Assembly: GCA_009903405.1 (NCBI GenBank)
Contig: PRCZ01000009.1
Location: 1 to 43,300, forward strand
Source of the DNA: Candidatus Methanophaga sp. AG-394-G06
Lineage (GTDB): Archaea; Halobacteriota; Syntropharchaeia; Alkanophagales; Methanospirareceae
DNA: 43,300 bases
Direction: 5' to 3'
In this document: one piece after another, positions 192 to 37,260 of the stretch
Layout of the letters: each line of letters starts with the position of its first letter
Position numbering within the stretch: the first letter of the stretch is position 1
Program-made: the position numbers and the translations under genes
Notes under the pieces: model-generated
The model's input: only the letters and a program-made list of their open reading frames with translations
Database searches by the model: none
What the model was told of the DNA's origin: nothing

Positions 192-785
192 ATGAGTGAA
201 AAGAAATTGGATAGTACAAATGTGGTGATTTTAGCAAAAAGTCATAATCCTACGATAGTTTCCAAAGATTGGATTATTAAAAAGAAAGTCTTGGAGGAGC
301 CTATAACCAATTTCGTTCCCACGCCCCCTTTTTCTATGGTTGAAAACAATGAGTTGAACATTCATGTGGATTTAAATAGGATGCAGATAACTATAAAAAA
401 AGTAGAGCAATCTGTTATCGATAAACTACTCATAGCCATTAAAAATTATGTCAGCAATTTATCCGAAACACCATACACGGCCATAGGTTTCAACTTTTCA
501 TATCGGGTGATAACTGAGGAGAGCGTGGAAAATATTTTCTCACCAGAGGTAGGAAAATTTAGGAAAGCATTTTCAGAAAATTATAGAATCGGAGGGGCAA
601 TACGTTTCAACTTTGAGGATTTTATCGCTATGGCGAACTTACCCCCGGATGAAAAGGTGTTAGCAAATTTTAATTTCCACTCGAATATAAAAGGGGGGAG
701 TGGGGAGGTTTTGGAAAAATTGAAGTCTTACCATGCGACAATGAGAAAAGCTGAAGAGGTATTGGAGGTATTGTTTGATGGTTAA
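192..785 (+). CDS. Uncharacterised protein, first gene of a three-gene cassette
   Basis: 197-aa ORF with upstream promoter-like sequence; overlaps the next ORF; no family recognised. Confidence 0.7.
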   Translation: MSEKKLDSTNVVILAKSHNPTIVSKDWIIKKKVLEEPITNFVPTPPFSMVENNELNIHVDLNRMQITIKKVEQSVIDKLLIAIKNYVSNLSETPYTAIGFNFSYRVITEESVENIFSPEVGKFRKAFSENYRIGGAIRFNFEDFIAMANLPPDEKVLANFNFHSNIKGGSGEVLEKLKSYHATMRKAEEVLEVLFDG

Positions 786-1377
786 TCACTTTAACATGGA
801 AACTGATGTAGGAACATTCTATGTCTCTAATCCATTCGCATTGATAATAGAAGATGTCGCAAAAAAAATTCCGAGTGTAAAAGCCCCTCAAGATACAGCG
901 ATTGGAATTGTAGAACCAACAGATGCTTTAAACCCAGCAAACGAAATTATTGGAGAAATTCTGGGAGCTATGGAAAAAGAGGGGCCAATGAGTAGGACGG
1001 TTACAGCATATAAGAATATAACACTGGAAGAAATGAGAGAGTCTATTGAAAATTGGGAAATATATGAAAAAGTGGAAGGGAACAGCGAAATAATCAATAT
1101 ATTAAGGACAGAGATTTCTATGTTGATGGATAAAGTTACTAATCTTGAGAGAAACATAACACCATTACTATCAAATATTGCAACACCAACTACTCCAGAG
1201 ATAGTGCTTGTTGAGGAGATGAGTAAGGAAACAGCTAAGGAAAAAGTATTAGATTACATACGGGAGCATAAAAAGACAGACATCGTAGAGTTACATAATA
1301 ATATCCACTGCGATATTGGGCCATTAGTTGAAATTATTGATGAATTGCGAATGGAAGGGAAAATAAGGGAGGATTAA
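778..1377 (+). CDS. Uncharacterised protein with central coiled-coil-like stretch and C-terminal winged-helix-like region
   Basis: ATG at 778 overlaps the stop of the preceding ORF; C-terminus ETAKEKVLDYIREHKKTDIVELHNNIHCDIGPLVEIIDELRMEGKI has a wHTH-like pattern. Confidence 0.7.
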   Translation: MVNHFNMETDVGTFYVSNPFALIIEDVAKKIPSVKAPQDTAIGIVEPTDALNPANEIIGEILGAMEKEGPMSRTVTAYKNITLEEMRESIENWEIYEKVEGNSEIINILRTEISMLMDKVTNLERNITPLLSNIATPTTPEIVLVEEMSKETAKEKVLDYIREHKKTDIVELHNNIHCDIGPLVEIIDELRMEGKIRED

Positions 1378-16658: not shown

Positions 16659-17357
16659 ATGAAGGTGTTCTTATGTTGTTCGGGCGACAGAAGTTATGAA
16701 GTTGCCAAAGCATTTGAGGAATGGTTACCTAAAGTAATCCAAGTCCTTGATCCGTTTATCTCGTCTGGAATACCAAAAGGTAAGCGTTGGGGAGAAGCCA
16801 TAGCAGATGAACTGGAGAAAACAAAGGTTGGTATTCTCTGTTTGACTAGAGAGAATTTAAATGCAAACTGGATTTTGTTTGAGGCAGGTGCATTGTCAAA
16901 AACTAAAGATGCTTATGTATGCACCTTTTTGCTTGACCTAAAAGCCACAGATATAGAAGAGCTTCTTGCTTCGTTTCAACACACTGCATCCAAAAAGGAG
17001 GATATTCGACAGCTAATGGATACGATTAATAAAGCGGTAAAGGAATCCGAAGAGCATTCGCTTGGTGAAAAGCTATTTAATTCAACTTTTGATACGTACT
17101 GGACGGAATTAGAAGCAACACTTAAGAGTATTAGAGCAAAATCACCAGAGGTAGTTCCGCCATCCAGAGATATGAAAGACATGGTTGAGGAAATCCTTGA
17201 AATTGCAAGAAGACAGGATGTAAAACCTTATTCTTTTTCGACATTACCACATACTCATTATCAACCTCTTAGGGAAATAGATAATCGAGATATAGTAAAA
17301 ATTCTAACAGGACGAAAAGAAGATGATACTGATAATAACGAGGATTCAGAACGATAG
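16659..17357 (+). CDS. TIR-domain protein with C-terminal extension
   Basis: KVFLCCSGDRSYEVAKAFEEWLP...GIPKGKRWGEAIADELEKTKVGILCLTRENLNANWILFEAGALSK matches stand-alone prokaryotic TIR proteins. Confidence 0.85.
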   Translation: MKVFLCCSGDRSYEVAKAFEEWLPKVIQVLDPFISSGIPKGKRWGEAIADELEKTKVGILCLTRENLNANWILFEAGALSKTKDAYVCTFLLDLKATDIEELLASFQHTASKKEDIRQLMDTINKAVKESEEHSLGEKLFNSTFDTYWTELEATLKSIRAKSPEVVPPSRDMKDMVEEILEIARRQDVKPYSFSTLPHTHYQPLREIDNRDIVKILTGRKEDDTDNNEDSER

Positions 17358-34157: not shown

Positions 34158-34445
34158 TCATATCTGATTGTTATTCTCCAATATTTTTATATATTGCTCT
34201 CCAGATATATCACATTTAATAAATTTTTCCAATTCATTAATGCTATTAAATTTTAATTGCTTACGCATATATGATAGCAAATTCCTACTGTATTCGATGT
34301 TTCCGTGACTTAATTTAGTTTGAATTCCCGATTGCTTTTTGTTAACCATGAGAACATAAAATTCATGTGATTTCCCTCCCACTTTAACGAAACCTTTACT
34401 CTCTAAGGCAGACTTTATCTCTCTCTTTTTAAAGACCATTGGCAT
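34158..34445 (-). CDS. HicA-like (YcfA family-like) small protein
   Basis: FKKREIKSALESKGFVKVGGKSHEFYVLMVNKKQSGIQTKLSHGNIEYSRNLLSYMRKQLKF...FIKCDISGEQYIKIL resembles archaeal HicA-like proteins. Confidence 0.6.
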   Translation of the reverse strand: MPMVFKKREIKSALESKGFVKVGGKSHEFYVLMVNKKQSGIQTKLSHGNIEYSRNLLSYMRKQLKFNSINELEKFIKCDISGEQYIKILENNNQI

Positions 34446-34448
34446 AAA

Positions 34449-35000
34449 CTACTTCTTAATAATGTCTAATATCTTATATTTTAATATCTGTCCACTATCA
34501 GTTAGTTCGTCATCCTTTTTGTTTGCATATTCTTTCCACAGCGTATAAAAATATTCTTGAAAGTCATCAATACATTCTTCCACAGTTGGCGCAACTGTTA
34601 AAATATTCAAATCCTCATGATATATCATCCATCCTTCTGTATGTAATTCAGCCTTTACCATAACTGGAACCACCAATTTAAATAAATGATTCCCATATCG
34701 AATCTCATTAAAACTTCTTGTTTGTTTTTCTATCACCTGACTTATCTCATCTTTTTCAAATCTTGTTACTATCCCATTTTCATAAGGAAAAAAATCTACA
34801 TAATGCCTAACAATGGCATACTTTCCCTTTAGGGTAGCCAAATATTTTCTTCTTATATCTCTAGTAGCTGTAGTAGCAACCGTCTCCATCCACTCATTTC
34901 TTGCTATAACATCTTTTGAAATTGTCACAAATCTTTCTCTTCCCATAGAACTATGAGAACAAACAAAATCGAGTTCAGGATTATTATTGTTTATATTCAT
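34449..35000 (-). CDS. Uncharacterised protein in the HicA-like operon
   Basis: 183-aa ORF 3 nt upstream of the HicA-like gene; C-terminal EDLNILTVAPTVEECIDDFQEYFYTLWKEY has a HicB/UPF0150-like feel (weak). Confidence 0.65.
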   Translation of the reverse strand: MNINNNNPELDFVCSHSSMGRERFVTISKDVIARNEWMETVATTATRDIRRKYLATLKGKYAIVRHYVDFFPYENGIVTRFEKDEISQVIEKQTRSFNEIRYGNHLFKLVVPVMVKAELHTEGWMIYHEDLNILTVAPTVEECIDDFQEYFYTLWKEYANKKDDELTDSGQILKYKILDIIKK

Positions 35001-35005
35001 TCAAA

Positions 35006-35302
35006 TTATCTCCTTTCCTCTTTAATTCGTTCTAGTTGTTCATTAAGAAGATTCACAATTGCCTCGAAATGTTCGAGTGAAACTCTAATTCGTGTGTGAT
35101 GCTCAATATAAGGGTCCACTGATTCTATTCCATTTTCTCCCCCTTTCTTTCCCTCCTCTTCCAAGGCACCGAAATCTAGAATGACAGATCGACCGCCAAG
35201 AATCACAGTCATAACCTCAGAAAACTTATCCTTGTAGTCATTCCCTTTCTTCCAATCCAACTTACCCGCAGAGACTATCTTTTCTTCTTTCTTCTCGCTC
35301 AT
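35006..35302 (-). CDS. DUF3467-like small protein
   Basis: VILDFGALEEE...PYIEHHTRIRVSLEHFEAIVNLLNEQLERIKEE; operon start. Confidence 0.55.
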   Translation of the reverse strand: MSEKKEEKIVSAGKLDWKKGNDYKDKFSEVMTVILGGRSVILDFGALEEEGKKGGENGIESVDPYIEHHTRIRVSLEHFEAIVNLLNEQLERIKEERR

Positions 35303-35334
35303 TTATGATTACCCCACACATATTTTAATTATGA

Positions 35335-35364
35335 TTTTATATATGTGTGTAAACATATATAAAA
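35335..35364. promoter_or_regulatory. Perfect inverted repeat overlapping the TATA region of the 35302-34158 operon
   Basis: TTTTATATATGT-gtgtaa-ACATATATAAAA, 12-bp perfect arms, 33 bp upstream of the start codon. Confidence 0.7.
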
Positions 35365-35392
35365 CTTCCCATCACCACGAAGTCACATACCT

Positions 35393-35425
35393 CGTACTTA
35401 AGTACAAGGCCTGTACTTAAGCACG
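35393..35425. repeat. Near-perfect palindrome containing two GTACTTAAG units
   Basis: CGTACTTAAGTACA-aggcc-TGTACTTAAGCACG (13/14 arm match). Confidence 0.7.
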
Positions 35426-35433
35426 ACCGCCAT

Positions 35434-37080
35434 TGACTTAAACTGTAACTTTAACCATTTTGAGTAATAGGTTTTAGAACAGATCTTAGATAGGACTTAG
35501 TCCAAGTATTCATAGCTATATTGTGCCTATTTCTATTTATATACATATTACTAATTTTAGTAATATGGACAGTAGTAAAAAAATACCCGATTGGGTGTTG
35601 GTGCAAAGGAAGAAGGGTACAGAGATTCACCGGCGAGGTGATAATTTCTATCTCTGTAAGGTCAGTAGCGTTTGGGATAAGAAGCTTAAGAGATCACGGA
35701 AGATTACAGGCGAGTATCTGGGCAAGATAACAGTGGACGGTATCGTTCCACCGAAGCAAAAGCAGCTCCTTGCGGCTTTTAAGCAGGTGACCGTTAAGGA
35801 GTACGGAGCGTCAAGTTATCTGAGGGCAATCGCAGCGGATATAGAAGAGAGCCTAAAAAGGCATTATCCGCAGGAGTATAAGGAACTTTTTGTGCTTTCT
35901 GCCCTCCGGCTTCTTGAACAGACTCCTTTGAAACGATTTGGGTTCTATTATCAGAATTCCCATCTCTCGGAAGTTCTGCTGGATGTAAGGACATCAACCA
36001 AATTTTTAGGCCCTTTTTTGCGCGATATTGGCTCACGCAGGAAGGTAATGGCTGCGTATATGAAGGAATTTCTGGTAGGCAGTGAGTTCGCAGCGATAGA
36101 TTTGAGCGAGATATTCACGTACTCGGAGGGCGTAAATGCCGCCATGCTTGGCCATAACCACAAAGGCGAATACATACCACAAATCAATCTGGCACTGGTA
36201 TTTTCGCTTGATAAAACGCAGCCCGGGTTCTTTAGAATGATTCCTGGAAGTATACGGGACGTTTCCTCAGTAGTTGCTACAGTTCTGGAGTTAAACCTGA
36301 AAGGAATCGTGTTCATTGGAGATAAAGGCTTTAACTCTGAAAAAAACGCTAAAACTTTCTCCGCTGGGAAACTAAAGTACATACTACCGCTCAAAAGAAA
36401 CAGCACACTAATAGGCTACGGCATACTCAAAAAAGGCAGCCGAAAAGAATTTGACGGCGTATTCCGGTTTGATAAGAGACACATATGGCATTACACGCAA
36501 AAAAGGGGGAAAGAGCAGATAATCACCTTCCTTGATGAGAAACTGAAGGCAGAGGAGACTTCTACGCTCATTTATGCCATAAATCAGCTTCAAAAAAAGG
36601 ACGAAACAGCCGAGAACACGAAAAAAATCGAGGGCTACCAGTCTCGGGTATACGAAAAAGACTACATGTTGGGGACAATATCTGTAAGAACTACCTGCGG
36701 CAAGTCGGCTCAAGAGGTCTATGGGCTGCTAAAAAGTCGAATGGATATAGAAAAAGCGTTCGATATATTCAAAAACATCCTTGAATCCGATAAGAATTAC
36801 ATGCGTGATGACAAACAATTGGAAGGCTTCCTGTTCGTCAGTTTCATCGCTCTACAATTCTACTACCGGATATACGGAAAACTAATCGAAAAAAAACTTC
36901 TAAATTACTATTCAGTTCCAGACGTTATCGAATATCTCAAAAGAGTACACTTATTGAAGATCATGGGGAAAACACAATTCGCTGAAATACCCAAAAAATC
37001 AAGAAAACTTATAGAAAAATTGGAATATCTACTACCTGAAGAACCTATTACGAAAAAATGTTAAAGTTACAGCTTAAACT
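35434..37080 (+). mobile_element. IS1634/IS4-like insertion sequence
   Basis: Inverted CTGTAACTTTAAC (35443-35455) and GTTAAAGTTACAG (37060-37072), imperfectly extended outward, surround an intact transposase; outer limits approximate and no TSD identified. Confidence 0.75.
35568..37064 (+). CDS. IS1634/IS4-like DDE transposase
   Basis: FAAIDLSEIFTYSEG...GFFRMIPGSIRDVSSVVATVLELNLKGIVFIGDKGFNSEKN...KSRMDIEKAFDIFKNILESDKNYMRDDKQLEGFLFVSFIAL; start at MDSSKK preferred over 35523. Confidence 0.88.
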   Translation, partial: DSSKKIPDWVLVQRKKGTEIHRRGDNFYLCKVSSVWDKKLKRSRKITGEYLGKITVDGIVPPKQKQLLAAFKQVTVKEYGASSYLRAIAADIEESLKRHYPQEYKELFVLSALRLLEQTPLKRFGFYYQNSHLSEVLLDVRTSTKFLGPFLRDIGSRRKVMAAYMKEFLVGSEFAAIDLSEIFTYSEGVNAAMLGHNHKGEYIPQINLALVFSLDKTQPGFFRMIPGSIRDVSSVVATVLELNLKGIVFIGDKGFNSEKNAKTFSAGKLKYILPLKRNSTLIGYGILKKGSRKEFDGVFRFDKRHIWHYTQKRGKEQIITFLDEKLKAEETSTLIYAINQLQKKDETAENTKKIEGYQSRVYEKDYMLGTISVRTTCGKSAQEVYGLLKSRMDIEKAFDIFKNILESDKNYMRDDKQLEGFLFVSFIALQFYYRIYGKLIEKKLLNYYSVPDVIEYLKRVHLLKIMGKTQFAEIPKKSRKLIEKLEYLLPEEPITKKC

Positions 37081-37260
37081 ACACTGTTATTACAAGTATG
37101 TCACAGGAATATAAAAGCTTTTCGATTTTTTATTTTTGATGTTTTTCTCCAAAAAGTTTGTTATAGCGCGATGTCTACCATGTTTTGTGCGCTCTAAGTT
37201 TTTCCTTTTCTTCATCTATCACCGATACGGTATCTGTCTTCTCGTTTATTGCATTCCAGC

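Follow-up and report, generated by a model that had tools for sequence, protein, structure and literature searches.

Why is a small DUF3467-like protein encoded directly upstream of a putative HicA toxin and its partner? The question is raised by three minus-strand open reading frames of Candidatus Methanophaga, located within a 43,300-nucleotide stretch of DNA that was analysed over its whole length (the window). The reading frames are separated by gaps of 5 nt and then 3 nt, confirming the tightly packed three-gene operon of the preliminary description, and encode proteins of 98 aa (first gene, 35006–35302), 183 aa (middle gene, 34449–35000) and 95 aa (last gene, 34158–34445). As judged from sequence, the operon is a new three-gene variant of HicBA, comprising a swappable accessory gene and a matching antitoxin tail. 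None of the three proteins matches a PADLOC model, and an NCBIfam scan gave no meaningful match for any of them. A plasmid search returned no relatives, and no relatives of the HicA family or of the DUF3467-like family were detected on viral contigs.

The HicBA core

The last gene encodes a basic protein (pI 9.7) with a conserved C-terminal extension of ~30 aa. As a single sequence it scores 16.4 bits against PF07927 (HicA_toxin), below the curated Pfam cut-off of 27, yet PF07927 is matched by 18 of its 23 aligned relatives (best E 6.3e-8), which are from archaea and one Sphingobium. Its membership of the HicA family, as previously proposed, is therefore clear through the relatives, if not from its own score. 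Residues K17, G18, H27 and T43 are invariant in the 23 sequences, H27 being the catalytic-type histidine that follows the first helix (23/23). We infer that the protein is a toxin, with putative RNase activity. HicA relatives are present in 56 of the 394 genomes of the phylum, and a contig profile scan with the HicA alignment returned five loci.

The middle protein, taken whole, has no family match in Pfam, NCBIfam or PADLOC, no relatives in a contig scan and no useful fold match in Foldseek. Its C-terminal ~92 residues (residues 92–183; 34452–34727, minus strand) are kept in 24 aligned relatives, nearly all of which are encoded directly upstream of hicA. This domain is predicted with high confidence (AlphaFold pLDDT of ~97) and has the topology β-β-β-β-α-α. 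Direct links to described families are weak, with PF12910 matched by 12 of the 24 members (best 0.0013), PF15919 by one member, and PDB entry 2yzt at an E value of 0.71. The domain is homologous to the C-terminal domain of Class 8-size antitoxins (330–364 aa), which was modelled as a HicB fold by Gerdes (PMC10865869); relatives with antitoxins of this size are many (for example, L018–L022, L027 and L029). By its C-terminal half, the protein formerly listed as unknown is a predicted HicB-type antitoxin rather than an unrelated protein, and the last two genes form a predicted HicBA pair.

Residues 1–91 of the antitoxin (34728–35000, minus strand) constitute an N-terminal extension that is predicted to be disordered, with a pLDDT of ~50 that may merely reflect a thin alignment. 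No DNA-binding domain is recognisable in the 183-aa protein. HicBA pairs that have no first gene (L003 and L004) encode short antitoxins of 116–118 aa without the extension, and the same short type is found in L006, where hicA has decayed. In L006 and at G051:C66:4875-4973, the HicB-type gene is intact and the hicA that follows it is cut by a stop codon. HicBA or T2-like modules (T2 being a family of first genes described below) repeatedly adjoin an apparent isoleucyl-tRNA synthetase gene (L003, L004, L006 and L117), as if at an insertion hotspot.

The DUF3467-like first gene

The 98-aa product of the first gene, here family T1, is an acidic protein (pI 5.4) modelled as β-β-β-α (AlphaFold pLDDT of 86). 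It scores 13.5 bits against PF11950 (DUF3467), short of the curated cut-off of 25; comparison of profiles against canonical DUF3467 proteins gave an E value of 2.4e-6 and a probability of 89% (hhalign). The earlier label 'DUF3467-like' survives as a distant homology that spans the β-sheet and the C-terminal helix, but not as a match at the curated threshold. The protein belongs to a small subfamily with its own N-terminal motif, L-[DP]-W-[KR]. The model has no confident fold match in the PDB, and among viral protein models it resembles unnamed phage proteins only. No functional paper on DUF3467 was found in the open-licence literature.

Canonical DUF3467 genes adjoin other genes, such as a GatD-like gene in L054 and L055, and other members of the subfamily (L047, L048 and L050) sit before PaREP1-family proteins. 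At L047, L048, L050 and L066, the proteins encoded directly downstream of the DUF3467-like genes belong to the PaREP1/PaREP8 families and carry N-terminal extensions of their own; alignment against shuffles revealed no convincing likeness between the extensions of these PaREP1 partners and those of the antitoxins associated with DUF3467-like genes. Other DUF3467 genes (L056, L057, L065 and L067) form a recurrent operon in which they come after a conserved winged-helix-like protein of ~175–185 aa and a protein of ~95–100 aa.

One first gene before two unrelated toxin pairs

The closest homologue of the first gene, with 74% identity, is found in another genus of the family (L046). There the next two genes encode a 138-aa protein whose C-terminus is RelB-like and a RelE/ParE toxin (PF05016, E 7.1e-9; RelE phrog, 3.6e-14), and all three genes overlap. 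A further relative (L108, genome G029) is a transposon-broken copy of the first two genes of the triplet. The N-terminal regions of the HicB-type antitoxin of the window, the RelB-like antitoxin of L046 and the antitoxin of the broken L108 gene align with one another with pairwise scores of 49, 76 and 117, values never reached in 500 shuffles. On these alignments the N-terminal extensions of the three antitoxins are homologous. Since this homology includes the window and L046, one first gene and one type of extension occur with two unrelated antitoxin/toxin families, a link that for T1 covers three loci only (the window, L046 and L108).

Exchange of the first gene before related toxin pairs

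The converse exchange is seen in L002, which holds the HicBA pair closest to that of the window (HicA, 73%; HicB domain, 63%) and in which the first gene is a different one, of family T2 (215–219 aa). T2 is likewise found ahead of a less closely related HicBA pair (L005), and the T2 proteins of the two loci are 55% identical; their associated extensions show no detectable likeness in alignments compared with shuffles. In L116, T2 stands before an antitoxin fragment whose extension matches that of L005.

A third family of first genes, T3 (~171–213 aa), was sampled at about a dozen loci, with gaps to the partner gene of −11 to 0 nt. T3 genes precede HicBA in L016 and L017, HEPN-type toxin pairs in L122 and L124–L128, and a DUF5678/aspartyl-protease-like pair in L123. 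The HEPN-type toxins fall below the cut-off of PF05168 in the three scanned proteins that matched it (best 0.007), and the L122 protein gave no match. The window itself contains a T3 gene at its left end (192–1377, plus strand), where a 197-aa T3 protein (192–785), 44% identical to the product of the gene before hicBA in L016, is encoded with an 11-nt overlap ahead of a protein comprising an N-terminal extension, a coiled coil and an HTH-like C-terminus (775–1377). The C-terminal half of this partner is homologous to the protein that follows a distant T2 relative in L117 (E 6e-11). The extensions of T3 partners are alike across differing C-terminal domains, with z of 5.3 between the window protein at 775 and L122, and of 4.2 between L122 and L016, each score being reached by 1 of 300 shuffles.

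The alignments show that the type of extension goes with the type of first gene while the toxin/antitoxin core changes. The triplet of DUF3467-like, HicB and HicA genes was observed intact in the window's genome alone; conservation applies to the pair, with the third gene exchanged. The proposal of a variant toxin–antitoxin module is nevertheless supported, as the HicA-like protein and the HicB-like domain travel together across many archaeal genomes and a third gene recurs.

Two simpler relationships between the families were considered and rejected on negative hhalign comparisons, namely that the three families of first genes form one superfamily and that the T2 gene has been fused into the antitoxins of 330–364 aa. 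A degraded relative of the 192–1377 layout is present in L129. The operon of T3, N-extended antitoxin and HEPN-type toxin in L124 adjoins an HsdM-like gene, a loose hint of a defence context, and the corresponding operons of L126, L127 and L128 adjoin RadC-like genes.

Proposed mechanism

Given that first-gene type and extension type go together over a changing core, the most economical explanation is binding of the extension by the first-gene product. We give about half of our credence to a tripartite toxin–antitoxin system in which this product would bind the antitoxin extension and control release of the toxin; binding, dependence of the antitoxin, the trigger and toxicity are its putative elements. 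What is observed here, and what this proposal draws on, is the operon with its HicBA pair, the antitoxin extension, and the inheritance of extension type along with first-gene type across unrelated antitoxins. In such a system, the last gene would provide a HicA-type RNase toxin and the middle gene an antitoxin whose C-terminal HicB-type domain caps HicA. The ~90-residue N-terminal extension would be unfolded or labile when alone, and the accessory protein encoded by the first gene would bind it, so that the bound antitoxin stays folded and protected. Were the accessory protein lost or drawn off, by stress or by a competing viral protein, the antitoxin would fail and HicA would cleave RNA. That the accessory protein protects the antitoxin, and that its removal frees HicA, is probable by analogy with two features of TAC systems, the dependence created by the antitoxin extension and the sensing by CmdC.

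A broader proposal, which we hold tentatively and with a little less conviction, is that in ANME-1 archaea and their relatives three or more accessory proteins, none of them SecB and none related to another, connect to toxin pairs of unrelated families through a matching N-terminal extension of the antitoxin. 'Chaperone addiction' would then have been invented a second time, independently, or the proteins would form a modular sensor system. The accessory families concerned are the DUF3467-like proteins, T2 (~215 aa) and T3 (~200 aa), and the pairs are HicBA, RelBE-like, HEPN-type and DUF5678/protease. The first-gene families have no recognisable sequence relationship to SecB or any known chaperone in Pfam and NCBIfam, and a search with positive controls found SecB (PF02556) in none of the class's 58 genomes. 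A SecB-type chaperone recognisable by fold was likewise rejected for the DUF3467-like protein, as no SecB is present among the 50 PDB matches listed, despite the pLDDT of its model.

The upstream palindrome and other possible roles for the first gene

Upstream of the operon, over the expected TATA region, lies a 12-6-12 palindrome with two perfect arms, TTTTATATATGT-gtgtaa-ACATATATAAAA (35335–35364). It is the sole 12+12 inverted repeat with a spacer of 0–10 in the window, its class occurred in 0 of 30 whole-window and 0 of 2000 local dinucleotide shuffles, and no second site within 3 mismatches of its pattern exists in the 1.53 Mb genome. The palindrome is thus as the preliminary description had it, and non-random by shuffles. 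The operator function assigned to it in an autoregulated toxin–antitoxin operon is without comparative support, because none of the related operons checked, L046 included, has the palindrome upstream. At this single locus it could serve as an operator for the DUF3467-like protein or for the whole complex. An origin within the neighbouring repeat or insertion element was rejected, as nearly all copies of that repeat align only from ~35376 onwards.

In omega-epsilon-zeta and paaR-paaA-parE, transcription of the operon is regulated by the product of its first gene. The window shares with these systems the order accessory–antitoxin–toxin and a promoter palindrome, and differs in that its first gene encodes neither an RHH nor an HTH regulator and its palindrome is not kept in relatives. 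The DUF3467-like protein would, on a corresponding interpretation that we consider unlikely on balance, bind the palindrome and repress the operon, with the antitoxin extension as its co-repressor contact. The gene order is consistent with this role, and so are the palindrome, which is strong, unique and placed over the TATA region, and an antitoxin that, like those of Class 8 hicBA (PMC10865869), has no recognisable DNA-binding domain. The weak resemblance of the DUF3467-like model to the nucleic-acid-binding domains of PC4/Sub1 points in the same direction, but these matches are not significant (6ycs, E 0.43; 4bhm, E 1.0) and the protein is acidic. The 74% identical first gene of L046, moreover, has no palindrome before it, and neither T2 nor T3 matches a DNA-binding family.

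The tripartite system is also to be weighed against an ordinary two-component HicBA in which the first gene is a passenger, acquired by chance co-transcription or by repeated mobile-element exchange. The HicBA pair is indeed the conserved part, the first gene varies by locus, a transposase gene lies nearby within an older repeat (35523–37064) and L108 is broken by transposons. However, first genes recur at near-zero gaps before five or more kinds of unrelated partner, and the likeness of the extensions tracks the first gene, not the toxin, which makes a passenger improbable. Less probable again is a role in sensing or targeting, in which the first-gene product would bind a viral or stress-related product and recruit the toxin pair, with no chaperoning of the antitoxin: the swapping of first genes among toxin pairs, HTH and PaREP1 proteins would fit a reusable input module, and one T3–HEPN-type operon adjoins an HsdM-like gene, but the first-gene proteins have no known sensor domain and such a role is hard to tell by sequence from the tripartite, chaperone-like system.

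Comparison with known systems

The core of the operon is closest in plan to Class 8 hicBA (Gerdes 2024, PMC10865869), in which HicB has 331–356 aa and HicA has ~95 aa with two extra C-terminal helices. Shared features are the reversed order hicB–hicA, a predicted HicB-type domain at the antitoxin C-terminus, the absence of a recognisable DNA-binding domain, and a HicA that has ~95 aa and is extended at its C-terminus, the extension in the window corresponding to the conserved C-terminal stretch of the 23-sequence alignment. The window operon differs in its antitoxin of 183 aa, in an N-terminal extension that is unrelated and probably disordered, and in the added third gene. None of the 14 hicBA classes of that study has a third gene of such kind, and no paper on a three-gene module of this kind was found in the open-licence literature.

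In TAC systems (Mtb HigBA1-Rv1957, Mmet HicAB-SecB-TA and CmdTAC; PMC5105189, PMC11618068), the antitoxin extension makes for dependence on the chaperone, can be transferred and, in two test proteins, was effective at either end (PMC5105189), and in CmdTAC the chaperone CmdC senses a phage capsid protein (PMC11618068). As in the window operon, three genes are combined with an antitoxin extension, one kind of third gene occurs with unrelated toxins (HicAB and the RelE-related HigBA), and the extension tracks the third gene. Unlike TAC, the third component of the window is not SecB-like by any test applied here, its gene comes first rather than last, and the extension is N-terminal instead of C-terminal. 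By analogy the module may be TAC-like in its working, but it is not classed as TAC because no relationship to SecB was detected and it differs in gene order and in the end that bears the extension.

If the proposed mechanism is correct, TAC-like toxin control extends beyond SecB, and several accessory proteins that grip antitoxins by a swappable N-terminal tail have arisen independently in archaea. Tripartite toxin–antitoxin systems would then follow a general plan in which input modules can be exchanged. The mechanism would also provide a first function for a DUF3467-type protein, a hint of how 'Class 8-like' HicBA without a DNA-binding domain are controlled, and small three-gene cassettes for direct tests of the sensing step.

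Neighbouring elements in the window

In the region upstream of the palindrome (35376–37245), an interspersed repeat of older date is split by a DDE transposase element (~35445–37072, with its reading frame at 35523–37064). The halves of the repeat (35376–35444 and 37073–37245) lie side by side in many other genomes of the archaeal family. The part of the repeat on the operon side of the transposase gene also contains another inverted repeat, an imperfect one, CTTAAGTACA-aggcc-TGTACTTAAG (35397–35421). Elsewhere in the window, a 232-aa protein (16659–17357) shows a weak match to TIR_2 (E 7e-5, below the cut-off).
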